A DNA stretch of 64,000 bases, taken from assembly GCF_000214175.1 (NCBI RefSeq), contig NC_015564.1, positions 4,030,001-4,094,000 on the forward strand, in the 5' to 3' direction. This DNA comes from Hoyosella subflava DQS3-9A1 (GTDB lineage: Bacteria > Actinomycetota > Actinomycetes > Mycobacteriales > Mycobacteriaceae). A program made the position numbers and the translations under genes. How positions within the stretch are numbered: the first letter of the stretch is position 1; every line of letters begins with the position of its first letter. The notes beneath the pieces are model-generated. The model was not told the DNA's origin and made no database searches. It saw only the letters and a program-made list of their open reading frames with translations. Positions 1 through 12,956 of this stretch are shown here, in pieces.

Positions 1-666
1 ACGGCCTGCATCGTCAAACGCCGTGCGCTGCATCGTGAGTAGCGGCGCCCCAGTTTTTTCCTCGAGCAGCACCGCCTCGTCCCGGCTTGCGGCCTGGGCA
101 CCGATGCGCTGGCGAGCGATCCTGATGTGCACACCTCTGACGCGCAATACCTCATAGAGGCCCCGCGCGGCCAGCTCTTCTTCGGGCGGCACAATCTCCG
201 CAGGCAAGTAGTTGGACATCAGAGCGATAGGCTCGCCATCCGAAGTGCGCAGCCGGCGAATCAGAACCACCTCATCGCCGGGCTGCAGGTTGAGCTCGCG
301 CGCCACCTCCGCGTCGGCGGGGTGTGGGCGATACTCCAGCATCGAGGTGCCCGGCTTCTTCCCGGCGCGCATCAAGTCGTCATACAGGCTCGTCAGCTCC
401 ACCTGGCGGTGCAGCGGCGCTTGCACAACCTGGGTGCCCACGCCACGCTTCCGCACGACCAGCCCTTTGTCGACTAGTTCCTGCATCGCGCGTCGCGTTG
501 TGGGGCGCGACAGATTGAGCCGCTCCGCGAGCGCGACTTCGTTTTCCACTCGATCGCCCGGATTCAGTGAACCTTCATGAATCGCCTGCTCAAAGGCTGC
601 GGCCAGCTGGTAATACAGGGGCAGCGGACTCGATCGGTCGAGGCGAATCTCTAGCGGGACACTCAC
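1..666 (-). CDS. iolR: GntR-family regulator with UTRA domain, probable IolR (partial, C-terminus off the window)
   Basis: Reading the minus strand from a GTG at 666 gives at least 222 codons with no stop before the window edge. Residues about 10-75 form a GntR winged helix (LPLYYQLA, then LAERLNLSRPTTRRAMQEL and KRGVGTQVV). From about residue 85 a UTRA/HutC-like effector domain follows. The gene is divergent from iolC, with a 221-base intergenic region that contains a match to the corynebacterial IolR motif. By context it should repress the inositol operon until an inositol-derived effector binds. The family is certain; the IolR role is inferred from position. Confidence 0.85.
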   Translation of the reverse strand, partial: MSVPLEIRLDRSSPLPLYYQLAAAFEQAIHEGSLNPGDRVENEVALAERLNLSRPTTRRAMQELVDKGLVVRKRGVGTQVVQAPLHRQVELTSLYDDLMRAGKKPGTSMLEYRPHPADAEVARELNLQPGDEVVLIRRLRTSDGEPIALMSNYLPAEIVPPEEELAARGLYEVLRVRGVHIRIARQRIGAQAASRDEAVLLEEKTGAPLLTMQRTAFDDAGR

Positions 667-887: not shown

Positions 888-1907
888 GTGCAGGTCACAC
901 ATACCCCGTCTGAATCCAGCCCCGCCGCTTCGAATACCTCGGGGGCTGGCGGCCAGGTTTACGACGTTCTCGCTATCGGTCGTAGCGGGGTCGATATCTA
1001 TCCACTGCAGATCGGTACCGGCCTCGAGAATGTCACCTCGTTCGGAAAATTCCTCGGGGGCAGCGCTGCGAACGTCACCGTAGCGGCGGCGCGCCTCGGC
1101 CGACGGGCCGCCCTGATTTCCGGCGCGGGTGACGATCCGTTCGGCCGCTACGTCAAACAAGAACTTCAGCGGCTCGGTGTCGAGAGCAGGCACGTCATCA
1201 CCAGCAGTGAGTACGCCACGCCTGTCACGTTCTGCGAGATCTTCCCGCCCGACGACTTTCCGTTGTACTTCTACCGCAAGCCCTCGGCGCCGGACCTGCA
1301 GGTCACACCTGCAGACATCGACACCGCCGCGGTTGAGAACGCAAAACTCTATTGGTCTACGGTCACAGGATTGTCCGAAGAACCTAGCCGCAGTGCACAT
1401 TTCGCGGCCTGGCAGGCCAGGGCACGACGGAAGTTCACGGTCTTAGATCTCGACTACAGGCCGATGTTCTGGGATTCTGCAGCCGCAGCAACTGAGCAGG
1501 TGCAGAAGGCACTTCCCCACATTACTGTCGCGGTCGGAAACCGCGAGGAGTGTGAAGTCGCCGTCGGTGAGACTGACCCGCACAAGGCCGCGGATGCGTT
1601 GCTCGACTTCGGCGTCGAGATCGCGATCGTCAAGCAGGGCCCGAAGGGGGTCCTGGGCAAAACCCGCGACGGCTCCGTCGTGGTGCCGCCCATCCCCGTG
1701 GATGTCGTGAACGGACTGGGCGCCGGAGATGCCTTCGGCGGCTCACTTTGCCATGGTCTGCTCGCTGGATGGCCGCTCGAAAAGATCCTTCGCCATGCGA
1801 ACGCCGCCGGAGCGATCGTCGCCTCCCGTCTCGAATGTTCCACCGCAATGCCCACCGAAAGCGAAATCACCGCCCTCCTACCCGACGAGGAGTCCCTCCA
1901 TGTCTGA
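888..1907 (+). CDS. iolC: 5-dehydro-2-deoxygluconokinase (IolC, PfkB family)
   Basis: This 339-residue protein is a PfkB/ribokinase-type sugar kinase that phosphorylates 2-deoxy-5-keto-gluconate in inositol catabolism. Visible features are an N-terminal GRSGVDIYP, the substrate-binding FLGGSAANV near residue 60, and the C-terminal PfkB signature GLGAGDAFGG that carries the catalytic Asp. The GTG start at 888 is preceded by GGGAG at 876-880. The stop overlaps the next gene's ATG by 8 bases. Unlike some IolC proteins it has no fused DUF2090 aldolase domain; that function seems to be supplied by the next gene. Confidence 0.93.
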   Translation: MQVTHTPSESSPAASNTSGAGGQVYDVLAIGRSGVDIYPLQIGTGLENVTSFGKFLGGSAANVTVAAARLGRRAALISGAGDDPFGRYVKQELQRLGVESRHVITSSEYATPVTFCEIFPPDDFPLYFYRKPSAPDLQVTPADIDTAAVENAKLYWSTVTGLSEEPSRSAHFAAWQARARRKFTVLDLDYRPMFWDSAAAATEQVQKALPHITVAVGNREECEVAVGETDPHKAADALLDFGVEIAIVKQGPKGVLGKTRDGSVVVPPIPVDVVNGLGAGDAFGGSLCHGLLAGWPLEKILRHANAAGAIVASRLECSTAMPTESEITALLPDEESLHV

Positions 1908-2817
1908 CACGCTCCTCGCACGCAACGTGCCGGGCAGAAAACCCGTGTGCTCGAGTTATTCGGAACTCACCGAGACTCGCGCGGCCGATCCTCAAGCAAT
2001 CAGCCGCGCCTGGGAGGCTCGCACCCAGCGCCCCACTATCCGCGATGACGGGAAGCTGATGATCGTCGCCGCCGACCACCCAGCTCGCGGCGCCCTGGCC
2101 GTGCGCGGCGATCACGGCGCCATGGCTAGCCGGCTGGAGCTCCTCGACCGGCTTCGCACCGCACTGGCGAACCCTGGTGTCGATGGTGTGCTCGCCACCA
2201 ACGACATTCTCGAGGACCTGCTCCTCATGGGCGCGCTCGAAGACAAAGTGGTGTTCTCCTCCATGAACCGAGGTGGACTCGCGGGCGCGTCGTTCGAGTT
2301 CGACGATCGCATGACGGCGGCAAACGCCCAGTCCACTGCCAGCCAGGGGCTCAATGGCGCAAAGATGTTGTGCCGTATCGCGCTCGACGACGCGGGCACG
2401 CTGCCCACACTGGAGAGCTGCGCAAAGGCGATTGATGAACTCGCGGCGCGCGAGCTCATAGCGATGGTCGAGCCGTTTCTCTCCCGCTGGGTCGACGGCA
2501 AAGTCCGCAATGACCTCAGCCCCGACGCTGTCATCAAGTCGATCCACATTGGCCAGGGACTCGGTTCTACATCGGCGTACACGTGGATGAAGCTGCCGGT
2601 GGTGCACGAGATGGAGCGCGTCATGGACTCAACGACGCTCCCCACCCTCCTCCTCGGCGGTGACCCTGATGGCGACCCGGAAGACACCTTCTCGAGTTGG
2701 GCGAGCGCGCTGCAACTACCGGCGGTACGCGGGCTGATTGTTGGCCGCACCCTCCTCTACCCCCCGGACAACGACGTCGCAGGTGCCGTGGCTACCGCGG
2801 TGTCACTGCTCCGCTGA
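1900..2817 (+). CDS. Cgl0158-like (beta/alpha)8 aldolase of the inositol cluster
   Basis: A 305-residue protein of the DeoC/LacD-like aldolase superfamily, equivalent by position to C. glutamicum cg0198, the gene next to iolC. Its start overlaps iolC, so the two are probably translationally coupled. Features include MIVAADHPARG near residue 50, a conserved feature of this family, and GLIVGRTLLYP near the C-terminus, a typical phosphate-binding strand of class I aldolases. It probably plays the IolJ role, cleaving 2-deoxy-5-keto-gluconate-6-phosphate to malonate semialdehyde and dihydroxyacetone phosphate. That role is inferred from the pathway gap; the family assignment is firmer. Confidence 0.8.
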   Translation: MSDTLLARNVPGRKPVCSSYSELTETRAADPQAISRAWEARTQRPTIRDDGKLMIVAADHPARGALAVRGDHGAMASRLELLDRLRTALANPGVDGVLATNDILEDLLLMGALEDKVVFSSMNRGGLAGASFEFDDRMTAANAQSTASQGLNGAKMLCRIALDDAGTLPTLESCAKAIDELAARELIAMVEPFLSRWVDGKVRNDLSPDAVIKSIHIGQGLGSTSAYTWMKLPVVHEMERVMDSTTLPTLLLGGDPDGDPEDTFSSWASALQLPAVRGLIVGRTLLYPPDNDVAGAVATAVSLLR

Positions 2818-2840: not shown

Positions 2841-3767
2841 ATGCTCGGCACTCTGAAGCGAAGCGACCACTACCTCCCTAACGGCGCGTCCGCACGCGGG
2901 CCTTTCGCGCTGCAGGTTACTCCCGAGTCGGCGGGCTGGACCGAATCGAGCCTGCGCATCGCCAACCTCGAACCTGGGCAGCGTCTCACGCTGGCGACCC
3001 GCAATGACGAGTACATCATCATCCCGCTTGCAGGGTCGGCCACTGTCGCAAATGGTGCTGGCACCTTCACACTGAAGGGCCGCGAGTCGGTCTTCACCGG
3101 CCCCAGCGACTTCGTGTACGTCGGCCGGGATAGCAAGTTCACGCTCTCCACCGAGACGGGCGGACGAATCGCGCTGTGTGGAGCGCGTGCCAAAAACAAG
3201 CTGCCGATGCGGTACGTAGCCGCCGAAGACGTTGCGGTGGAACTCAGAGGGGCGGGCAACTGCAGCCGGGAGGTCCGCAACTTCGGCACCGCGGACGCGT
3301 TTGAAGCGGACTCGCTGATCGCGTGTGAGGTAGTCACACCGGGCGGCAACTGGTCCAGCTACCCGAGCCACAAACACGATGAAGAGACTGACGTCGAGTC
3401 GTCGCTCGAGGAGATCTACTACTTCGAGATCTCCGCAGCTGACCCTGGCGATGGCTCGTTCACCGGTGCCGTCGACACCAGCGGCCAGGGCTTCGGCTAC
3501 CAGCGCGTGTACGGCACCAAGGAGCGGCCAATCGAGGTCCTCGAAGAAGTACGCACCGGTGATGCGGTGCTGATTCCACACGGCTACCACGGCCCGTCCG
3601 TCGCCGCCCCTGGCCACCACATGTACTACCTGAACGTAATGGCCGGCCCCGGCGAGGTGCGCGCCTGGAAAATCACCGACGATCCCCAGCACACGTGGAT
3701 CCGCGGAACCTGGGATGACCAAAACGTCGACCCCCGCCTCCCCCTTCGACCGAACTCCGGAGAATAG
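2841..3767 (+). CDS. iolB: 5-deoxy-glucuronate isomerase (IolB)
   Basis: A 308-residue bicupin protein that converts 5-deoxy-glucuronate to 2-deoxy-5-keto-gluconate. The KlpmRYV stretch, the SSYPSHKHDE metal-binding His motif near residue 175 and the C-terminal HMYYLNVMAGP are characteristic of IolB. It starts 23 bases after the aldolase gene and stops 2 bases before iolD, consistent with one polycistronic unit. Length is slightly above the Bacillus protein (about 270) and normal for actinobacteria. Confidence 0.95.
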   Translation: MLGTLKRSDHYLPNGASARGPFALQVTPESAGWTESSLRIANLEPGQRLTLATRNDEYIIIPLAGSATVANGAGTFTLKGRESVFTGPSDFVYVGRDSKFTLSTETGGRIALCGARAKNKLPMRYVAAEDVAVELRGAGNCSREVRNFGTADAFEADSLIACEVVTPGGNWSSYPSHKHDEETDVESSLEEIYYFEISAADPGDGSFTGAVDTSGQGFGYQRVYGTKERPIEVLEEVRTGDAVLIPHGYHGPSVAAPGHHMYYLNVMAGPGEVRAWKITDDPQHTWIRGTWDDQNVDPRLPLRPNSGE

Positions 3768-3769
3768 TC

Positions 3770-5740
3770 GTGGCACCGATCAACCAGACTCCCACCCACG
3801 AGAAAAACATCCGCCGCGCTTCCAGCAACGACCCCACGGTGCGCTTGACGGTTTCGCAGGCGACTATCAAGTTCCTCGCTAACCAGTACGTGGAGCGTGA
3901 TGGTGAGCGGCACAAGCTTTTCGCCGGCTGCTTCGGCATCTTCGGCCACGGCAATGTCGCAGGTCTCGGCCAGGCACTACTGCAGGCAGAGCTCGACGAC
4001 CCCGAGGCGCTGCCCTACATACTCGGCCGCAACGAGCAGGCCATGGTGCACACCGCGGTCGCGTTCTCACGTGCCAAGGACCGGCTGCAGACATGGGCGG
4101 TGACCACGTCGATCGGGCCCGGCGCGACCAACCTGGTCACCGGCGCGGCGCTTGCAACCACGAACCGGATCCCTGTTCTGCTCCTCCCCGCAGACACGTT
4201 CGCGACCCGTGTGAGTGCTCCTGTGCTGCAAGAACTCGAGCGCCCCGATACGGGCGACATCACCGTCAACGACACGCTGCGTCCGGTCTCGAAGTTCTTT
4301 GATCGTGTGTGGCGTCCTGAGCAGTTGCCCTCGGCGCTGCTGGGCGCGATGCGCGTGCTCACTGATCAGGCAGAGACCGGTGCGGTTACAGTCGCGATTC
4401 CGCAGGACGTCCAGGCCGAAGCATTCGACTGGCCCGTTGCCCTGTTCGAGGAGCGCACATGGCACCTCGGCCGGGTGGTGCCGCAGCCGGATCAGGTCAC
4501 GCGCGCGACCGAACTCATTCGCTCGGCACAGAAGCCGCTGATCGTCGCCGGCGGCGGAGTGCACTACTCCCGCGCCACGGAAGCCCTCAAGGCGTTCGCG
4601 GAACAAACTGGTATTCCGGTCGGTGAAACCCAAGCCGGCAAGGGGTCACTGCGATATGACCATCCGCTCTCCGTCGGTGCCATTGGCTCCACGGGAACGA
4701 CCGCCGCGAACGCGCTCGCGGCCGAAGCTGACGTTGTGATCGGTATCGGCACCCGCTACAGCGATTTCACCACGGCGTCGCGTACCGCGTTCTCGAACCC
4801 GGACGTGAAGTTCGTAAACATCAACGTGTGCTCCCTCGATGTGTTTAAGCACAGCGCCGTCGGAGTGCTCGCTGACGCCCGCGAGACTCTCACCACTCTG
4901 ACAGACCTGATGGAGGGCTACCGCACCGCGGACGATTATCAGGAGAACGTCAGGACGCTCGCCGCCGAATGGGATGCCACCGTCGAATCCGCGTATCACC
5001 CCGGTCGTACCGGCGACAACGGCAAACTGCTGCAGTCGGAAATCATCGGTCTGGTCAACGAGCTCACCGACCCGCGTGACGTCGTCGTGTGCGCGGCGGG
5101 CTCAATGCCCGGAGACTTGCACAAGATGTGGCGCACTCGGGACAGCAAGGGTTACCACGTCGAGTACGCATACTCCTGCATGGGGTACGAGATCGCCGGA
5201 GGTCTCGGTATTCAGATGGCCTGCCCAGACCGCGACGTATTCGTCACCGTGGGTGACGGCTCGTACCTCATGATGGCAACCGAGCTCGTCACGGCAGTCC
5301 AGGAGGGCATCCCCGTCAACGTCGTCTTGGTGCAGAACCACGGCTACGCCTCGATCGGCTCGCTCTCAGAGGAGCTCGGCTCGCAGCGCTTCGGAACCAA
5401 ATACCGATACCGCTCTGATCGTGGCCGCCTCGACGGCGATATCTTGCCCGTGGATCTGGCAGCCAACGCAGAAAGCCTTGGTGCAGAGGTGATTCGGGCG
5501 AACACGTCCCCGGAAATCACCGACGCAATCAAGCATGCGAAAGCAAGCCCGCGTCCCACAGTGATTTACGTCGAATCCGATCTGAGCACCAACGCGCCGG
5601 ACAGCAAATCGTGGTGGGACGTGCCCGTCTCAGAAACGTCGGAACTCGAGTCGACACAACAAGCCCGTGAAGTCTATGACGCCTGGAAGTCCGTGCAGCG
5701 CCACTACCTGCGCCCTTCTTCCTTGCGCCCGTCCGATTGA
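3770..5740 (+). CDS. iolD: 3D-(3,5/4)-trihydroxycyclohexane-1,2-dione hydrolase (IolD)
   Basis: A 656-residue thiamine-diphosphate enzyme of the acetolactate-synthase superfamily that opens the inositol ring. The N-terminal ThDP Pyr domain carries LGRNEQAMVHTA, where the Glu is the cofactor-activating residue. The C-terminal PP domain has VTVGDGSYLMM followed by QNHGYASIG, the GDG-to-N ThDP/magnesium-binding motif. The GTG at 3770 is 2 bases after iolB. Confidence 0.95.
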   Translation: MAPINQTPTHEKNIRRASSNDPTVRLTVSQATIKFLANQYVERDGERHKLFAGCFGIFGHGNVAGLGQALLQAELDDPEALPYILGRNEQAMVHTAVAFSRAKDRLQTWAVTTSIGPGATNLVTGAALATTNRIPVLLLPADTFATRVSAPVLQELERPDTGDITVNDTLRPVSKFFDRVWRPEQLPSALLGAMRVLTDQAETGAVTVAIPQDVQAEAFDWPVALFEERTWHLGRVVPQPDQVTRATELIRSAQKPLIVAGGGVHYSRATEALKAFAEQTGIPVGETQAGKGSLRYDHPLSVGAIGSTGTTAANALAAEADVVIGIGTRYSDFTTASRTAFSNPDVKFVNINVCSLDVFKHSAVGVLADARETLTTLTDLMEGYRTADDYQENVRTLAAEWDATVESAYHPGRTGDNGKLLQSEIIGLVNELTDPRDVVVCAAGSMPGDLHKMWRTRDSKGYHVEYAYSCMGYEIAGGLGIQMACPDRDVFVTVGDGSYLMMATELVTAVQEGIPVNVVLVQNHGYASIGSLSEELGSQRFGTKYRYRSDRGRLDGDILPVDLAANAESLGAEVIRANTSPEITDAIKHAKASPRPTVIYVESDLSTNAPDSKSWWDVPVSETSELESTQQAREVYDAWKSVQRHYLRPSSLRPSD

Positions 5741-5774
5741 TCCTCGCCGAGAAGCGACGAAGGAAATGAAGCCA

Positions 5775-6704
5775 ATGAACGACCTATCCCGCCTCATGCT
5801 CGGCACCGCACCCGATTCCTGGGGTGTCTGGTTTCCCGAGGATGACCACCAGGTCGGCTGGAAGCAGTACCTCGACGAGATCGCCCAGGCCGGTTACTCG
5901 TGGACCGAACTCGGCCCATCGGGATTCCTCCCACAGGATCCGAATCAGCTCCGGGAGGAACTGGAGAAGCGCCAGCTTCAGGTCAGTGGCGGCACCGTGT
6001 TCGCAGGTCTGCACCGCGGCAAAGAGGCACTGAAAGAGGCCATCGAGACGTTCAGCAAGGAAGCTCGCCTGCTTCAGGCTGTGGGTGCTAAGTACCTGGT
6101 ACACCTTCCTGAGCAGTACACCGACATGCATTCAGGTGCGGCCACGGAAGCTGCAGACCTCGAGACCCAGCAGTGGGATGACCTCGTCACCGGGTCGAAT
6201 GAGCTCGCGAAGGTGATTCTCGAAGAGTTCGGTATCGAGCTGGTGTTCCACCCGCACGTCGACACCCACGTCGACACTCAAGAACGCGTCGAGCGGTACC
6301 TGCAGGACACCGACCAGCAGTATGTGAACCTGTGCCTCGATACCGGGCACATCTCGTACTGCGACGGCGACAACGTCGACATCATCAGAAAGTTCCCCGA
6401 ACGCGTGCACTACGTGCACCTCAAGCAGGTCGACCCTGAGGTTCTCAAGACTGTGCGGGCGCAGAACCTGCCGTTCTCGGAGGCCGTACGGCTCGGTGCG
6501 ATGGTGGAGCCGCCACACGGCATCCCCGATATGCCGCCGCTGCTCGATGCGCTCGCTGAACTCGGCACCGACATCTTCACGATCGTCGAACAAGATCTCT
6601 ACCCGGTCGCGCCGCACATCCCACTGCCCATCGGTGCCCGTACCGCCGGATACTTCTCGGCCTGTGGCCTCGGACCCGTCCGTCGCTGGCCATACAAGAA
6701 CTGA
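5775..6704 (+). CDS. iolE: Inosose dehydratase (IolE-type xylose-isomerase-like TIM barrel)
   Basis: A 309-residue sugar-phosphate isomerase/epimerase-like TIM barrel. Metal-ligand positions can be seen in VFHPHVDTHVDT, LCLDTGHISYCDGD, YVHLKQVD and IVEQD. It should dehydrate 2-keto-myo-inositol to the trihydroxycyclohexane-dione used by IolD. The ATG at 5775 is chosen over 5766 because the AAGGA at 5760-5764 is 10 bases from the former and only 1 from the latter. A second barrel (IolH) lies in the same operon; this one resembles IolE more closely, but IolI activity cannot be excluded. Confidence 0.85.
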   Translation: MNDLSRLMLGTAPDSWGVWFPEDDHQVGWKQYLDEIAQAGYSWTELGPSGFLPQDPNQLREELEKRQLQVSGGTVFAGLHRGKEALKEAIETFSKEARLLQAVGAKYLVHLPEQYTDMHSGAATEAADLETQQWDDLVTGSNELAKVILEEFGIELVFHPHVDTHVDTQERVERYLQDTDQQYVNLCLDTGHISYCDGDNVDIIRKFPERVHYVHLKQVDPEVLKTVRAQNLPFSEAVRLGAMVEPPHGIPDMPPLLDALAELGTDIFTIVEQDLYPVAPHIPLPIGARTAGYFSACGLGPVRRWPYKN

Positions 6705-6719
6705 AAGGACTTGAGGACA

Positions 6720-7748
6720 ATGACAGTTAAGGTCGCAGTACTCGGCGTCGGAGTGATGGGCGCCAACCACGCGGATCAGCTGACAAACCTCGTGGCCGGT
6801 GCTGACGTGACGGTCATCAACGACTACGACGACGAGCGCGCGAACGCGATTGCGGACGCGATTCCAGGGGCACGGGTTGTGTCGGATCCCTTCGACGCAA
6901 TCGTGGCTGAGGACGTGGACGCGGTGGTGATCGCCACCCCCGGCCCAGTGCACGAGAAGCAAGTTCTCGCTTGCCTCGAAGCGGGCAAGCCCGTGCTGTG
7001 CGAGAAGCCACTCACCACGGACGTCGAGTCGTCGCTTGAGATCGTGAAGGCCGAAGCAGCCCTGGGGAAGCAGCTGATTCAGATCGGGTTCATGCGGCGA
7101 TTCGATGACGAGTACATGAAGCTGCGCGCCCTCGTCGAATCCGGCGAGCTCGGTGCTCCCATCATGCTGCATCTCGCACACCGCAATCCCGCTGTCCCGG
7201 ATCACTTCGACAGCGCGATGATCGTGAAGGACTGCCTTGTCCACGAGGTGGACTGTGCGCGATTCCTCCTTGGCGAGGAAATCAAGTCGGTCCATATTCT
7301 CAAGCCACGCCCCAACTCGAACGCTCGTGACGGGCTGCAGGACCCCCAGTTCGCGATCTTCGAGATGGAGAGCGGCCGCATGGTCGACGCTGAAGCGTTC
7401 GTGACCACGGGAATCGCGTACGAGGTGCGTTCCGAGGCGATTTTTGAGCGCGGCAGCGCGCAGATCGGGCTTGACGTCAACTTGGTGCGGAAGTCGGCGC
7501 CCGGTATCTGGGGCGGAACGGTAACACCCGGGTTCAAGGAGCGGTTCGGCCGCGCCTACCACGACCAGCTGCAGCGCTGGGTCAACGCAGTCAAGCGCGG
7601 CGACGAAACCGGCAACTACGTCGATGGTCCCCGCGCCTGGGACGGTTATGCGGCAGCCGCGGTCTGCGACGCGGGAGTCCGCTCGCTCACCACAAGTACC
7701 CGGGTCGAGGTCGACATGGTCGACCGTGCATCGATTCCTGGCGCTTGA
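6720..7748 (+). CDS. iolG: Inositol 2-dehydrogenase (IolG, Gfo/Idh/MocA family)
   Basis: A 342-residue NAD-dependent oxidoreductase. The Rossmann motif VLGVGVMGANH is at the N-terminus, and CEKPLTT near residue 97 contains the conserved EKP of the family. KDCLVHEVDCARFLLG carries the H and D residues of the active site. It oxidises myo-inositol to 2-keto-myo-inositol, the first step of the pathway. The ATG is preceded by a GAGGA motif at 6713-6717. A second, more diverged copy lies at the end of the operon. Confidence 0.92.
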   Translation: MTVKVAVLGVGVMGANHADQLTNLVAGADVTVINDYDDERANAIADAIPGARVVSDPFDAIVAEDVDAVVIATPGPVHEKQVLACLEAGKPVLCEKPLTTDVESSLEIVKAEAALGKQLIQIGFMRRFDDEYMKLRALVESGELGAPIMLHLAHRNPAVPDHFDSAMIVKDCLVHEVDCARFLLGEEIKSVHILKPRPNSNARDGLQDPQFAIFEMESGRMVDAEAFVTTGIAYEVRSEAIFERGSAQIGLDVNLVRKSAPGIWGGTVTPGFKERFGRAYHDQLQRWVNAVKRGDETGNYVDGPRAWDGYAAAAVCDAGVRSLTTSTRVEVDMVDRASIPGA

Positions 7749-7778: not shown

Positions 7779-8645
7779 GTGGTCAAGATCGCGCTCGACC
7801 CCAACATGTATCACCCCGAGCTGTCGGTCGCCGACGAGGTTCGGAAGGCCGCCGACCTCGGGTATGAGTATCTAGAGCTCTCGCCCCGCGCTGACTTTTT
7901 CTTCTGGCATCACTACCCCAAAGCTGATGATGCCGCGATCGCGGACGTGAAGAAGGCCATGAAGGAGACGGGCGTACAAGTACTCACCCTAGTTCCGGTG
8001 TTCAACTGGGCGTCTCCTGAAGAGCAGGAGCGGCAGGCGCAGGTCCGCAACTGGAAGCGGCTGCTCGAGATCGCCAATGACCTCGAGTGCCCGCTCGTGA
8101 ACTCGGAGCTATCAGGTGACCCGAACCGTCCCCGCGAATCGGAGCACGCGTTCTACCGCTCTATGGAGGAGCTGATCCCGGACTTCGAACGCTGCGGCAT
8201 CGCACTCAACCTCGAGGCTCATCCTTACGACTTCGCCGAGCGGAACGACGACGCGCTGAACATCATCCGCGGAATCAACAAGCCGTGGGTCAATTACGTG
8301 TACTGCGCGCCACACTCGTTCCACCTGTCAGACGGCGCGTACAACGTCGGAGAAATGATGCGCAAGGCGGGCGACAAGCTGCAGCACGTTCACATCGCGG
8401 ACTGCTACAACCATCGCGCCAACCAGGGCAACCGGTACATCATCAACCCGCCCGGGTCTGACGTAAGAATCCACCAGCACAACGAGATCGGGCACGGCGA
8501 AGTGCCTTGGAACGAGTTCTTCTCCACCCTTCGCGACATGCACTTCGACGGTGTCGCCACTGTCTGCGTCTTCGGCTGGGAAGAAAAGGCAGACGAAATC
8601 CACAGGCGCATGCTCGACCGGATCACCGCCGAACTGGCCAAGTAA
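7779..8645 (+). CDS. iolH: IolH-like sugar isomerase/epimerase
   Basis: A 288-residue TIM barrel closely resembling Bacillus IolH in order of motifs: ALDPNMYHPELS, DLGYEYLELSPR, LNLEAHPYDF, YVYCAPHSFHL, HVHIADCYNHRA and RIHQHNEIGHGEV. Metal-binding Glu, His and Asp positions are intact. The precise reaction of IolH is not settled in the literature I know. The GTG start at 7779 follows GAAAGGA at 7766-7772. It sits between iolG and mmsA. Confidence 0.85.
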   Translation: MVKIALDPNMYHPELSVADEVRKAADLGYEYLELSPRADFFFWHHYPKADDAAIADVKKAMKETGVQVLTLVPVFNWASPEEQERQAQVRNWKRLLEIANDLECPLVNSELSGDPNRPRESEHAFYRSMEELIPDFERCGIALNLEAHPYDFAERNDDALNIIRGINKPWVNYVYCAPHSFHLSDGAYNVGEMMRKAGDKLQHVHIADCYNHRANQGNRYIINPPGSDVRIHQHNEIGHGEVPWNEFFSTLRDMHFDGVATVCVFGWEEKADEIHRRMLDRITAELAK

Positions 8646-8682: not shown

Positions 8683-10182
8683 ATGACCACCAAGACGATT
8701 TCGCACTGGGTCGACGGAAAATCCTTCGTCGGCACCAGTACCAAAACCGCACCGGTAACCAATCCCGCGACCGGTGAAGTCACCGCTCAGGTTGCACTCG
8801 CTAGCGTCGAGGACACTCGGGCTGCCATCGACGCCGCTGCGGCCGCATTCCCTGCCTGGCGCGATACGTCGCTCGCAAAGCGCGTCCAGATTCTCTTCAA
8901 GTTCCGCGAACTGCTGAACGAGCGCAAGCCTGAACTCGCGAAGATCATCACCTCCGAGCACGGCAAGGTTCTGGACGACGCGCTCGGCGAGGTCACGCGT
9001 GGCCAGGAAGTTGTCGAGTTCGCGTGCGGCATCCCGCATCTACTCAAGGGCGGCATGACGGAGAACGCATCCACCAAGGTTGATGTGTTCTCGATCCGTC
9101 AGCCCATCGGTCCGGTGGCCGCGATCAGTCCGTTCAACTTTCCCGCGATGGTGCCGATGTGGTTCTTCCCCATCGCAATCGCTACAGGCAACACGGTTGT
9201 CCTGAAGCCGTCCGAAAAGGATCCCTCGGCCGCCATCTGGATGGCTGAATTGTGGGCGGAGGCGGGCCTGCCCGCCGGTGTCTTCAACGTTCTCCAGGGT
9301 GACAAAACTTCGGTTGACGAACTCCTCACCAACTCCGGGATCAAGGCAATCTCCTTTGTTGGCTCTACCCCGATCGCGCAGTACGTGTACAACACGGGCA
9401 CCGCGCACGGCAAGCGTGTGCAGGCGCTGGGTGGCGCGAAGAACCACATGGTGGTTCTTCCCGACGCCGACCTCGACTTGGCTGCCGACGCCGCCGTCAA
9501 CGCGGGCTTCGGTTCAGCAGGTGAGCGCTGCATGGCCATCTCCGCACTCGTCGCGGTCGGTGGCGTCGGCGACGAACTCGTGGCGAAGATCAACGAGCGC
9601 GCCAAGACCATCAAAACCGGTGACGGCACCAAGGGCTGTGACATGGGGCCGCTGGTCACCAAGCAGCACCGCGACAAGGTTGCGTCCTACGTCGACGCCG
9701 GTGAGGCCGACGGGGCGACAATCGCGCTCGATGGCCGTCAGGTACAGCCCGATGGCGGAGAAAACGGCTTCTGGCTCGGCCCGACAGTCATCGACAACGT
9801 CACCCCGGATATGTCCGTCTACACGGATGAGATCTTCGGGCCGGTCCTATCCGTACTCCGTGTCGAGAGTTACGACGATGCGCTCGAGCTCATCAACTCG
9901 AACCCGTACGGCAACGGCACCGCGATCTTTACCAACGACGGCGGCGCGGCCCGGCGCTTCCAGAACGAAGTCGAGGTGGGCATGGTCGGCATCAACGTGC
10001 CGATCCCCGTCCCGATGGCGTACTACAGCTTCGGTGGCTGGAAATCCTCGCTGTTCGGTGACACGCACGCTCATGGTGCGGAAGGCATCCACTTCTTCAC
10101 CCGGGGCAAGGTCATCACCGAGCGCTGGCTCGACCCCAGCCACGGAGGCCTCAACCTCGGCTTCCCGCAGTCGCACCACTGA
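8683..10182 (+). CDS. mmsA: Methylmalonate/malonate-semialdehyde dehydrogenase, CoA-acylating
   Basis: A 499-residue aldehyde dehydrogenase superfamily member, also known as IolA. Visible features are the cofactor region SPFNFPAMVPMWF, a GGAKNHMVVLPDAD segment near residue 250 and the catalytic Cys in GERCMAISAL near 285. The C-terminus IHFFTRGKVIT is diagnostic of MmsA/IolA. It converts malonate semialdehyde to acetyl-CoA, the last inositol step, and can also serve valine breakdown. The ATG follows AAGGGA at 8669-8674. A long hairpin lies directly after the stop. Confidence 0.95.
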   Translation: MTTKTISHWVDGKSFVGTSTKTAPVTNPATGEVTAQVALASVEDTRAAIDAAAAAFPAWRDTSLAKRVQILFKFRELLNERKPELAKIITSEHGKVLDDALGEVTRGQEVVEFACGIPHLLKGGMTENASTKVDVFSIRQPIGPVAAISPFNFPAMVPMWFFPIAIATGNTVVLKPSEKDPSAAIWMAELWAEAGLPAGVFNVLQGDKTSVDELLTNSGIKAISFVGSTPIAQYVYNTGTAHGKRVQALGGAKNHMVVLPDADLDLAADAAVNAGFGSAGERCMAISALVAVGGVGDELVAKINERAKTIKTGDGTKGCDMGPLVTKQHRDKVASYVDAGEADGATIALDGRQVQPDGGENGFWLGPTVIDNVTPDMSVYTDEIFGPVLSVLRVESYDDALELINSNPYGNGTAIFTNDGGAARRFQNEVEVGMVGINVPIPVPMAYYSFGGWKSSLFGDTHAHGAEGIHFFTRGKVITERWLDPSHGGLNLGFPQSHH

Positions 10183-10206: not shown

Positions 10207-10274
10207 GTTCACACCCCTTGCGGCACGAACACACTGGCTACGACCAGTGTGAACGTGCCGCGAAGGGTGTGAAC
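10207..10274. repeat. Long imperfect palindrome between mmsA and the tautomerase gene
   Basis: The left arm (10207-10237) and right arm (10244-10274) are each 31 bases and match as inverted repeats at 27 positions around a 6-base loop. Each arm carries two copies of GTTCACAC or its near variant GAACACAC, so the structure is built from smaller units. No T-tract follows on either strand. It may be a T-less (I-shaped) terminator or attenuator that lowers expression of the last two genes, or a mobile palindromic unit. Confidence 0.7.
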
Positions 10275-10297
10275 TCGAGAATCACAAGGAGCGCACC

Positions 10298-10690
10298 GTG
10301 CCGCTAGTCCGCATCGATGTCATCGAAGGCCGCCGTGACGCCGTTGAGCTGCGGACACTCGCCGACGTTGTGCAGCAGGTAATGCTCGATACGTTCGCCG
10401 CGCCGGATCGTGACCGCTATCAGATCATCACCGAGCACAAGCTTGGCCAGATCATCGCCGAAGACACTGGCCTGGGGTTTGAGCGCACCGATGACGTAGT
10501 CATCATCCAGGTGACGCAGCAAGGCCGTACACAGGATCAAAAAGAAGCCATGTACCGGGAACTAGCGGCGAAACTCGAACGGGAAACCGGCTTAGCGCCC
10601 AGTGATCTCGTGGTGTCGATCACAGAGAACACGCGCGCCGACTGGTCCTTCGGCCATGGTGAGGCACAGTTCCTCACCGGCCGTCTCTGA
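10298..10690 (+). CDS. 4-oxalocrotonate tautomerase-superfamily protein
   Basis: A 130-residue protein beginning M-P-L-V-R-I. The Pro after the initiator Met is the catalytic base of the superfamily once Met is removed. The length (two beta-alpha-beta units) fits the MSAD/cis-CaaD-like or YusQ-like branch rather than the 60-residue 4-OT. The GTG start follows AAGGA at 10286-10290. It lies inside the inositol transcription unit, after the palindrome and 25 bases before the second dehydrogenase. It could speed a keto-enol step of an inositol intermediate; that is speculation from position. Confidence 0.8.
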   Translation: MPLVRIDVIEGRRDAVELRTLADVVQQVMLDTFAAPDRDRYQIITEHKLGQIIAEDTGLGFERTDDVVIIQVTQQGRTQDQKEAMYRELAAKLERETGLAPSDLVVSITENTRADWSFGHGEAQFLTGRL

Positions 10691-10715: not shown

Positions 10716-11759
10716 ATGAGCAAGAAGACTGCCATCGCGCTGGCCGGCCTGGGCCGGATGGGCCGCATCCACCTCACCAACCTTGCGGGCCGCTGCCCCT
10801 CAGCTCAGTTAGCCGCAGTGTTCGACGTGCGCGAAGACGTCGCGCGCGAGGTTGGTGAACTGCACGGCGTGCCGTGGACTACACGGTACGAGGACCTGCT
10901 CGAGAATGCCGATCTTGATGCGATCGCCATCGCGACGCCCACGGGCACCCACGCACCGCTGACCATCGCCGCGGCTAGAGCAGGCAAGCATGTCTTCTCG
11001 GAGAAACCGATCTCACTTGACCGCAGCACCACGGTGGACGTTCTCGACACGGTGAAGCGCGCCGGAATCCAGTTCCAAGTCGGCTTTCACCGCCGGTTCG
11101 ACCCGGACTGGGTAGCTGGAGTCGAGCGCATCCAGAACGGCGAGCTCGGTGAGGTGTTCATGTTCCGCACGTCGCTGCGCGACATGATCGCGCCGAAAGC
11201 CGAGTTTCTCGCGGGATCAGGCGGCTTCTTCGTGGATGTCACCATCCATGACCTCGACACCGCGCGCTGGATCGCTGGCGAGATCGTGGAAGTCAGCGCC
11301 CACGGCAGTTCCCTCAGTGATCCAGCAGGGTTTGCCGCGATCGGCGATGTCGATACCGCAGTCGTGATCGTCAGGTTCGAGAACGGCGCGCTCGGCGTCA
11401 TCGATAACAGCCGGGCCGCCGGTTATGGCTACGAATGCGCCACGGAGGTTGTCGGCTCGAAAGCGACGCTCCGCATCGACAATCCGCGCCGGTACGGCTA
11501 CGAGTGGCGTACACCAGGGGCGGCGTCGGTCCCGTTGGTGGAAGACTTCGAACAGCGCTACCCCTACGCCTACCAGGCTGAACTCGAAGCGTTCGCGCAG
11601 TGCGTCCAGAGTGGCGAACCACCGCGCTGCACCGGTCTCGATGCGCTCGCCGCGTTTGACATCGCCCAGGCCGCTGCACATGCGTGGAAGACAGGCGCGA
11701 CAGTGAAACTCAATCCGCAGCAGGTAGAGGGTGGCACCGAATACGGCCCACTCGGATAG
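10716..11759 (+). CDS. Second IolG-like inositol/polyol dehydrogenase (Gfo/Idh/MocA)
   Basis: A 347-residue NAD-dependent dehydrogenase. LAGLGRMGRIH is the N-terminal dinucleotide motif, FSEKPISL the EKP motif, and TIHDLDTARWIAGE the HD-containing active-site segment near residue 175. It is clearly homologous to, but diverged from, the IolG at 6720. It may act on another inositol isomer such as scyllo- or D-chiro-inositol. The ATG follows AAGGGA at 10705-10710. It ends 6 bases from the convergent TetR gene. Confidence 0.85.
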   Translation: MSKKTAIALAGLGRMGRIHLTNLAGRCPSAQLAAVFDVREDVAREVGELHGVPWTTRYEDLLENADLDAIAIATPTGTHAPLTIAAARAGKHVFSEKPISLDRSTTVDVLDTVKRAGIQFQVGFHRRFDPDWVAGVERIQNGELGEVFMFRTSLRDMIAPKAEFLAGSGGFFVDVTIHDLDTARWIAGEIVEVSAHGSSLSDPAGFAAIGDVDTAVVIVRFENGALGVIDNSRAAGYGYECATEVVGSKATLRIDNPRRYGYEWRTPGAASVPLVEDFEQRYPYAYQAELEAFAQCVQSGEPPRCTGLDALAAFDIAQAAAHAWKTGATVKLNPQQVEGGTEYGPLG

Positions 11760-11765
11760 GGCAGC

Positions 11766-12956
11766 TCAGATTCCGAGGATGCGGAGCCCCACGGCGGTCA
11801 GGTCATCAGCGCGTCCCGCTCCGAATGGCCGGCGCAGGACAGAATTGTTGACGACTGTCGTGGCCGCGATAACACGCAGCCGCGCCTCAGCACGCGTCAT
11901 TCCTGTCTTCGAGTACTGCAGCAGGGTCGCCCACGAGGTCACCCCGTCACGCTGAATGTCGCGGCTGCGACTTGCTTTGCCCTCGCGGGCGAGATGCATG
12001 GGCTCGGTAGCTGCGACAGCGATCAGGCCAGGGTGGGCGACGCTGAACTCGGCGTAGTAGCGCATGATCGAGCGCACCGTATCCTCCGGCGCTCCACTCT
12101 CACTAACTGCCCGGGACGTGTACCCGTCAATCCAGCGGGCGCACCGGTCAAGGACGACTTTGAGCAGATCGGACTTGCGCGGAAAGTAGTGGTAGATGCT
12201 CGGGCCCACCATTCCGGCCCGTGCGGCGACGTCTTCGATCGTGGTCCCCGCATAACCTTGCTCCGCGAACAGTCGTGTTGCCGCTGCGATGAGTTCCTCG
12301 CTGCGCACCCCGCTAGCGTCAGCTTCGGCGAGTCGCTCGGCATCGCCTTCGGCGATGAGCAACGGGTAGGGCACAGTGACCGGCAGGGCGTTGACGACGT
12401 CGCGCGCGATTTGGGCGAGCAGTTGTTCACATTCCGCATCTGGGATGTCGGCGCGGTGGTACGAGATGCTGCCCATCACCCACGCGATGCACCATGCGAG
12501 GAATCGCGCTTGGCTGGCCGCAAGCTCAGGGCGCATCGCGCGTACCGTCCGGCTGAGGGCGCGGACACTCGACACGACTGCTTCAGCGATGGCGCGCTGG
12601 TGCGCAGGATGCAGATGGCGCACTTCTCGGCGCAGCAAGGGGTGCACGCCACGCGCGCTCAACGCGACTTTCGCAAGCGTCCTCAGCATTACCTCCGGTG
12701 CCGGGTCGCATGCGACTAGCGTGTCGCTTACACCGCGTGCTGCGGTCAGGAGGGTCTGCTCGAGAAGTTCCTCTTTATTGCGGTAGTGCCTGTACAGTGC
12801 CGTCGGCGTCACACCTACCGCGTCGGCGATGTCGGCCATGGACACTTGGTGGTATCCGCGGGCGATGAACAATCTCGTGGCAGTGCTCAAGATTGTTTTC
12901 TTGCGATCGCGTGGCCGCTTCCGTGGGACAAGCCCCGTTGAGTCGCTGATCGACAT
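11766..12956 (-). CDS. Tandem double TetR-family regulator
   Basis: A 396-residue protein with two complete TetR units in one chain. The first HTH lies at about residues 18-64 (KKTILSTATRLF, then ADAVGVTPTALYRHYRNKEEL). The second lies at about 218-265 (EELIAAATRLF, then AARAGMVGPSIYHYFPRKSDL). Each is followed by its own alpha-helical ligand/dimerisation region. Single TetR proteins are about 200 residues, so this is a fused duplication able to form a pseudo-dimer. Similar fused forms are known among actinobacteria. Target genes are unknown; it is convergent with the inositol operon. Confidence 0.88.
   Translation of the reverse strand: MSISDSTGLVPRKRPRDRKKTILSTATRLFIARGYHQVSMADIADAVGVTPTALYRHYRNKEELLEQTLLTAARGVSDTLVACDPAPEVMLRTLAKVALSARGVHPLLRREVRHLHPAHQRAIAEAVVSSVRALSRTVRAMRPELAASQARFLAWCIAWVMGSISYHRADIPDAECEQLLAQIARDVVNALPVTVPYPLLIAEGDAERLAEADASGVRSEELIAAATRLFAEQGYAGTTIEDVAARAGMVGPSIYHYFPRKSDLLKVVLDRCARWIDGYTSRAVSESGAPEDTVRSIMRYYAEFSVAHPGLIAVAATEPMHLAREGKASRSRDIQRDGVTSWATLLQYSKTGMTRAEARLRVIAATTVVNNSVLRRPFGAGRADDLTAVGLRILGI

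Follow-up and report, generated by a model that had tools for sequence, protein, structure and literature searches.

A gene for a probable malonate semialdehyde decarboxylase in the inositol catabolic operon of Hoyosella subflava

The degradation of inositol ends with the cleavage of 2-deoxy-5-keto-gluconate 6-phosphate to dihydroxyacetone phosphate and malonate semialdehyde (MSA). For Bacillus subtilis, the part of PMC3176187 that was available describes release of malonic semialdehyde by the IolJ aldolase and its conversion to acetyl-CoA and CO2 by IolA. The iolABCDEFGHIJ set given there includes no tautomerase, in line with the statement in the first-pass annotation of the DNA studied here that the canonical iol set is without one, but the statement does not extend to Lactobacillus casei, where, according to the excerpts available from PMC2530867, iolK lies within the iol operon. 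The same excerpts state that neither E. faecalis OG1RF nor the C. perfringens operon has IolK. In the portion of PMC10606566 to hand, IolK is counted among the studied malonate semialdehyde decarboxylases (MSADs). No wider association between MSADs and iol genes was reported in the open-access literature searched, and IolK of L. casei was the precedent found. In the available sections of two further papers, a tautomerase is named as the 4-oxalocrotonate tautomerase of catechol degradation (PMC5789663) and the MSAD-like yodA is a gene separate from the iol genes listed there (PMC11656851).

The best-studied MSAD is known from the breakdown of a synthetic soil fumigant. The catalytic features of MSADs, as set out in the available part of PMC10606566, are Asp-37 together with either the Arg-73/Arg-75 pair or, in the enzyme from strain FG41, a replacement consisting of Thr-72, Gln-73 and Arg-76. 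Pro-1 is a general acid in MSAD, and an unknown share of each subgroup of the superfamily may not catalyse the reaction of its founder (both from the accessible sections of PMC5818174).

The operon and the gene

The window, i.e. the whole stretch of 64,000 nucleotides of H. subflava DQS3-9A1 that was analysed (NC_015564.1, positions 4,030,001 to 4,094,000), includes an operon in which iolC, a Cgl0159-like gene, iolB, iolD, IolE-like, IolG-like and IolH-like genes, mmsA, the MSAD-family gene and a second IolG-like gene follow each other in this order, all on the plus strand. The features, in window coordinates, are:

1 to 666, minus strand: GntR/UTRA regulator, divergent from the operon (profile match; reaches the window edge)
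888 to 1907, plus strand: iolC, 5-dehydro-2-deoxygluconokinase (TIGR04382, above cut-off)
1900 to 2817, plus strand: Cgl0159-like protein (PF22649; start by coding score)
2841 to 3767, plus strand: iolB, 5-deoxy-glucuronate isomerase (TIGR04378, above cut-off)
3770 to 5740, plus strand: iolD (TIGR04377, above cut-off)
5766 to 6704, plus strand: IolE-like inosose dehydratase (TIGR04379, 168.3 bits, under the cut-off; start by coding score)
6720 to 7748, plus strand: first IolG-like dehydrogenase (NF052679, 287.9 bits, under the cut-off; start by coding score)
7779 to 8645, plus strand: IolH-like protein of the sugar phosphate isomerase/epimerase fold (assigned by position and Pfam AP_endonuc_2, PF01261, only; start by coding score)
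8683 to 10182, plus strand: mmsA/iolA, CoA-acylating (methyl)malonate semialdehyde dehydrogenase (TIGR01722, 705.7 bits against a cut-off of 448.5; the listed ORF begins at 8551, with 8683 picked as the start by coding score)
10207 to 10274, plus strand: near-perfect inverted repeat of 68 bases (31-nt arms, 87 % complementary, 6-nt loop; z -7.2)
10286 to 10291, plus strand: AAGGAG, likely ribosome-binding site of the MSAD-family gene (read by eye, 6 bases 5′ of the GTG)
10298 to 10690, plus strand: MSAD-family gene (130 aa; begins with GTG; Pro as residue 1 once Met is removed)
10716 to 11759, plus strand: second IolG-like dehydrogenase (TIGR04380, 323.4 bits, under the cut-off of 355; ORF listed from 10602, ATG at 10716 picked by coding score)

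We take the Cgl0159-like protein to be a possible aldolase of the inositol pathway. A further regulator gene (11766–12956, minus strand) adjoins the operon; its product of 396 aa includes two TetR_N stretches in a single protein.

The first-pass annotation had described a protein with an N-terminal Pro encoded between mmsA and a second IolG, and this description was confirmed. The ORF has 130 codons, the second being CCG (Pro), and no internal stops, and the product matches Pfam Tautomerase_2 (E 1.4e-30) and Tautomerase (E 1.1e-14), both above the curated cut-offs. It fell below the cut-offs of the 4-oxalocrotonate/2-hydroxymuconate tautomerase families NF002571 (39.7 bits, cut-off 55) and TIGR00013 (35.3 bits, cut-off 56.9), and likewise below those of three more families. 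The gene is co-directional with its neighbours, starting 115 bases beyond the mmsA stop and ending 25 bases before the IolG-like start, and a search of its own genome at E values up to 10 returned it as the sole match.

The inverted repeat lies between mmsA and the MSAD-family gene. Both of its arms match solely at this site in the window genome and at the corresponding site in a second species of the genus (G050), each genome having one extra one-arm match with 2 mismatches, and the genome of the third species (G024) has no matches. A repeated element was therefore rejected, as was a classic terminator, since no candidate with a run of T was called at this position. The hairpin could split or stabilise the message.

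Sequence relationships, active site and proposed reaction

When the product was compared with the sequences in the PDB, the closest entries were MSADs, namely that of Pseudomonas pavonaceae (two versions, the best at E 1.3e-34) and that of FG41 (1.1e-29), and the next entry followed at 0.00098. A predicted model of the protein had a mean pLDDT of 90.6. With this model, VIA-align placed the MSADs first (Z 20.1–19.4; next entry 17.1) and Foldseek also gave MSADs as the best matches (TM 0.90–0.91). The predicted tautomerase fold is, on this basis, nearest to the solved MSADs.

Residue conservation was examined in an alignment of 110 rows. It combined the window protein and two solved MSADs with 80 named loci, which were the best 80 of 551 relatives rather than a random sample, 13 loci of the family and 14 from further genomes. 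All 110 rows have Pro-1 and Asp-37, while Arg-75, Trp-114 and Phe-116 are present in 109 each and Leu-128 in 108. Position 73 varies, with Gln in 49 rows, Arg in 33, Lys in 23 and other residues in 5. The window protein is of the Gln-73 type, reading T-Q-Q-G-R where the FG41 MSAD has T-Q-A-G-R. It has the Pro-1 feature of MSADs (GTG-CCG start, with Pro first after the predicted removal of Met), Asp-37 and the FG41-style replacement of the arginine pair, in which the second arginine is retained, lacks the Arg-73 of the P. pavonaceae type, and keeps the hydrophobic wall of MSADs (Trp-114, Phe-116, Phe-123 and Leu-128).

Sequence, active-site residues and the predicted fold, together with the genomic contexts described below, back the proposal in the first-pass annotation of an MSAD-like enzyme acting on MSA, and the most likely product of 10298–10690 is an enzyme that breaks down MSA, a reactive end product of the inositol pathway. 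Given the caution that the available part of PMC5818174 raises for MSAD-group proteins, its function may differ from that of MSAD. An MSAD-like enzyme would convert MSA to acetaldehyde and CO2 without CoA or NAD+. The carboxylate of MSA would be held by the conserved second arginine and, in the Gln type, perhaps also by Gln-73, and Pro-1 with Asp-37 would polarise the aldehyde, so that CO2 would leave and acetaldehyde would be released. Such an activity fits an iol operon, as MSA is the compound that MmsA receives from the iol pathway. We infer an MSAD activity, a use of it on inositol and an overflow or detoxifying role as a side branch beside MmsA, and regard this reading as probable. The branch would come into play when MmsA, CoA or NAD+ is limiting and would not replace MmsA; alternatively, it may provide an exit route in which CoA and NAD+ are saved.

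It seems quite unlikely that the protein is a true keto-enol tautomerase or isomerase whose substrate is an earlier enolisable intermediate, such as inosose, 2-deoxy-5-keto-gluconate or the trihydroxycyclohexane-dione on which IolD acts. Such a function would accord with the commonest chemistry of the superfamily (as stated in the part of PMC5818174 consulted), with the position of the gene among genes for such intermediates and with the replacement of the P. pavonaceae Arg-73 by Gln. However, Gln-73 is also found in the FG41 enzyme, which is a named MSAD, the MSAD hydrophobic wall is retained, 4-OT-type enzymes lie far behind the MSADs among solved relatives, and some relatives stand beside mmsA, nitronate monooxygenase or AptA genes without iol genes. 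The suggestion made earlier that the protein tautomerises another intermediate of the pathway gained nothing in its favour from the analysis.

Distribution and genomic contexts

The gene is found in two of the three species of the genus, and iolD in all three. In G024, the same operon runs from mmsA directly to the IolG-like gene, without the MSAD-family gene and without the hairpin, and their joint absence indicates that the two were gained or lost as a single piece of about half a kilobase. Between the window and the corresponding gene of the second species (L049 10001–10390), synonymous divergence of the MSAD-family gene is 0.049 (4.5 of 96 sites), compared with 0.113–0.353 for the other operon genes (mmsA, 0.353; second IolG-like gene, 0.204). 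The difference has a pooled p of 0.0005 but a p of 0.20 against the slowest operon gene, and recent arrival or exchange of the gene is hence a hint only. The dN/dS for this pair is 0.32, from just 4.5 synonymous and 4.5 non-synonymous differences, and 0.36 against a more distant family member (G044). Elsewhere in the operon, the first IolG-like protein of G024 (L066 9135–10160) shares 67 % identity with that of the window, compared with 91–94 % for IolD, IolE, IolH and MmsA, and its dN of 0.241 (0.034–0.09 for other operon genes) looks, at the sequence level, like a gene replacement.

Among 201 genomes drawn from the family, 18 carry the gene, 59 carry iolD and 8 carry both, against 5.3 expected (p 0.12). 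Only 3 of the 18 carriers have it linked to iolD within 15 kb, and 10 are without iolD. This weak co-occurrence was not used as support, and the case rests on linkage elsewhere. In a draw of 345 genomes from the class, the gene was found in 18, iolD in 142 and both in 14 (7.4 expected, p 0.0014; 4 linked); with the 12 stronger matches only, both were found in 8 (4.9 expected, p 0.064; 4 linked). Of 246 genomes from the order of Listeria costaricensis, which we take to be Lactobacillales in GTDB, 45 have the gene, 51 have iolD and 36 have both, compared with 9.3 expected. The two are linked in 27 of these 36 genomes, though a single spacing of approximately 4.4 kb is common to many of the 27, which may represent few events. 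Kinship is ignored in these tests.

Loci were counted as iol-linked if at least two of IolB, IolC, IolD, IolE and Cgl0159 scored above 90 bits within the stretch examined. By this fixed criterion, 17 of the 80 named loci (the best 80 of 551 relatives) are iol-linked, and they belong to Kocuria, Geodermatophilus, Blastococcus, Modestobacter, Nocardioides, Pengzhenrongella and Brachybacterium, and to Halobacillus, Metabacillus, Alteribacillus, Listeria, Paenibacillus and Bacillus. One more locus, L084, was judged iol-linked by reading rather than by the criterion. The scan for iol neighbourhoods took in 13 of the 17 family stretches, leaving out L052, L054, L055 and L056, three of which repeat the named loci L075, L081 and L077. 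The position of the MSAD-family gene differs between loci: it is just 5′ of iolC on the same strand in L100 and L195–L197, before iolB in L104 and L107, before mmsA in L144, after IolE and a 1.1-kb stretch in L187, and divergent in L078 and L124. On plasmids, an iol cluster with the gene was seen in 4 of 10 stretches viewed out of 149 matching records. Three are Agrobacterium plasmids with the order iolC-iolD-(iolE)-iolB-‘tautomerase family protein’, and a Clavibacter plasmid has an iolD-containing cluster with an MSAD-family gene.

Linkage was therefore seen in Actinomycetota, in Bacillota and on alphaproteobacterial plasmids, which bears out the co-occurrence with iol genes in other genomes that the first-pass annotation had put forward as its test, albeit with a weak signal in the family itself. 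In a tree of 96 rows (with L084 counted as iol-linked, and 14 later loci that entered the residue count placed outside it), 21 rows carry the iol label. Its distribution requires 16 changes, of which starred branches force at least 8, and 17 of 500 shuffles gave a value as low. Hence, iol linkage appears to have been gained or lost many times, with modest clustering only.

These data also bear on whether the gene is a passenger, brought into the operon by chance as an accessory gene and playing no part in the inositol catabolism of this organism. Its presence in two of three species, with the same operon lacking it in the third, its low synonymous divergence relative to its neighbours and a family co-occurrence with iolD that is not above chance are all consistent with this, but the same kind of gene is iol-linked in other phyla and in other arrangements, and the active site is intact. 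We consider a passenger unlikely.

Contexts other than iol clusters were also seen. An mmsA gene is directly 5′ of the MSAD-family gene in L071, L074 and L089, and also in L069, L073 and L075 at contig ends; in L060, mmsA is 5.4 kb away with other genes in between. A nitronate monooxygenase-like gene in the same direction is found beside L105 and L117, and such genes are also adjacent, with the same direction, in three family loci (L062–L064) and in one of the ten plasmid stretches viewed, the Sphingomonas plasmid L207, where the monooxygenase is annotated as such and a flavohemoprotein gene is also present. Four scanned monooxygenase-like proteins match FabK in NCBIfam, below the cut-off, and three scanned with Pfam match NMO. 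With two of the 80 named loci from the best 80 of 551, three family loci and one in ten plasmid stretches, this is a minor context, and nitronate monooxygenase was rejected as a common neighbour. Nitronate monooxygenase would convert propionate 3-nitronate to MSA, and its presence beside the gene suggests a part in propionate 3-nitronate breakdown. Approximately 70 bases 5′ of the gene in two Methylobacterium loci, L129 (8556–9932) and L141, there is a gene for the omega-aminotransferase AptA (653 bits, cut-off 500), a kind of omega-aminotransferase that can use beta-alanine. Among the non-iol neighbours, mmsA on its own, nitronate monooxygenase and AptA each suggest a link to MSA. In the scans applied, about 52 of the 80 named loci (again, the best 80 of 551) show none of these contexts, the others comprising 18 with iol genes, 6 with mmsA, 2 with the monooxygenase and 2 with AptA.

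Two further neighbourhoods were recorded. In two Exiguobacterium loci, L096 (8455–9939) and L121, an aldehyde dehydrogenase gene lies approximately 60 bases 5′ of the MSAD-family gene, and its product might take acetaldehyde or the substrate of MSAD. On the Klebsiella plasmid L211, the MSAD-family gene (4001–4390) is flanked by IS5-type transposase genes; 22 Klebsiella plasmid records were matched.

Five loci (L104, L107, L098, L101 and L115) have the gene close to iol genes and show no mmsA within the locus examined, as might be expected if MSAD took the place of MmsA in removing MSA. Yet each of the 17 genomes tested, among them those of the five loci, has an MMSDH above the family cut-off, and in the L107 and L115 genomes it maps immediately outside the locus, provided that equal contig numbers denote the same contigs. 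Replacement was rejected on these grounds; it is already refuted for the window, where mmsA is intact, and we hold it to be very improbable in general. Since 16 of the 17 genomes carry an MSAD-like gene together with an MMSDH, the enzyme would seem to form a side branch keeping a reactive aldehyde in check. The G024 operon that lacks the gene, the family carriers without iolD and the many loci without any of the contexts, taken with the presence of MmsA in every genome tested, indicate that this side branch is optional.

A broader proposal, to which we give an even chance, is that MSAD serves bacteria generally as a mobile relief valve, recruited time and again into whichever operons make MSA (from inositol, from propionate 3-nitronate, from beta-alanine, or with mmsA alone). 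Both the Arg-73 and Gln-73 types are found in inositol operons. If this were true, many orphan MSADs would have a natural role outside the breakdown of a man-made chloropropene. The repeated placement with iol genes in three phyla offers a simple and testable natural role for MSAD, and suggests both that MSA is a real burden of inositol catabolism and that, for such genes within iol operons, ‘tautomerase family protein’ could give way to a better name.

Comparison with described MSADs

The FG41 enzyme (coryneform bacterium FG41; PDB 3MJZ) is 46 % identical to the window protein. Both have T-Q-x-G-R instead of the arginine pair and, as judged from the predicted model, the same fold. By alignment, the FG41 enzyme has one extra residue before the motif and Tyr-123, whereas the window protein has Phe-123, as in P. 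pavonaceae. MSADs of the FG41 type were also observed just 5′ of iolC on the same strand in L196 (13170–13556) and L197 (11009–11395); they have T-Q-G-G-R and Tyr-123 and are 54 and 52 % identical to the FG41 MSAD, indicating that this type, too, is found in inositol operons.

The best PDB match, the MSAD of P. pavonaceae 170 (PDB 2AAG), is 42 % identical and has the same fold as the predicted model. Its Pro-1, Asp-37, Arg-75, Trp-114, Phe-116, Phe-123 and Leu-128 are all kept, but where it has Arg-73, one of its two arginines that bind the substrate, the window protein has Gln. It serves 1,3-dichloropropene degradation and not inositol catabolism, according to the part of PMC10606566 available.

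The MSAD-1 genes of rapid-growing mycobacteria are of the Thr-72/Gln-73 type, like the window gene (same source and portion). In the main text of that paper, the words inositol, operon and ‘neighbo’ were not found. The best 80 of 551 relatives include loci of Mycolicibacterium and Mycobacterium. The mycobacterial loci L070, L072 and L074 have no iol genes in the stretch examined, and L074 adjoins mmsA.

In L187, from the order of Listeria, the genes mmsA-iolB-iolC-iolD-IolG-IolG-IolE, a 1.1-kb stretch and then the MSAD-family gene lie on one strand, an order that we take to resemble that of the iol operon in L. casei. Identity between the L187 and window proteins is 41 %, and they differ at position 73, which is Arg in L187 and Gln in the window protein. 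Over the 96 rows of the tree, which includes neither L187 nor L. casei IolK, the iol label is scattered.

The closest parallel in arrangement is IolK of L. casei BL23, likewise an MSAD-family gene in an iol operon (excerpts of PMC2530867 and PMC10606566), though its position in the operon differs from that in the window, where the gene sits after mmsA. The idea that originally drew attention to this gene is, therefore, right in substance but not new in kind: IolK is the earlier example of the arrangement, and the gene described here is a further case of it.
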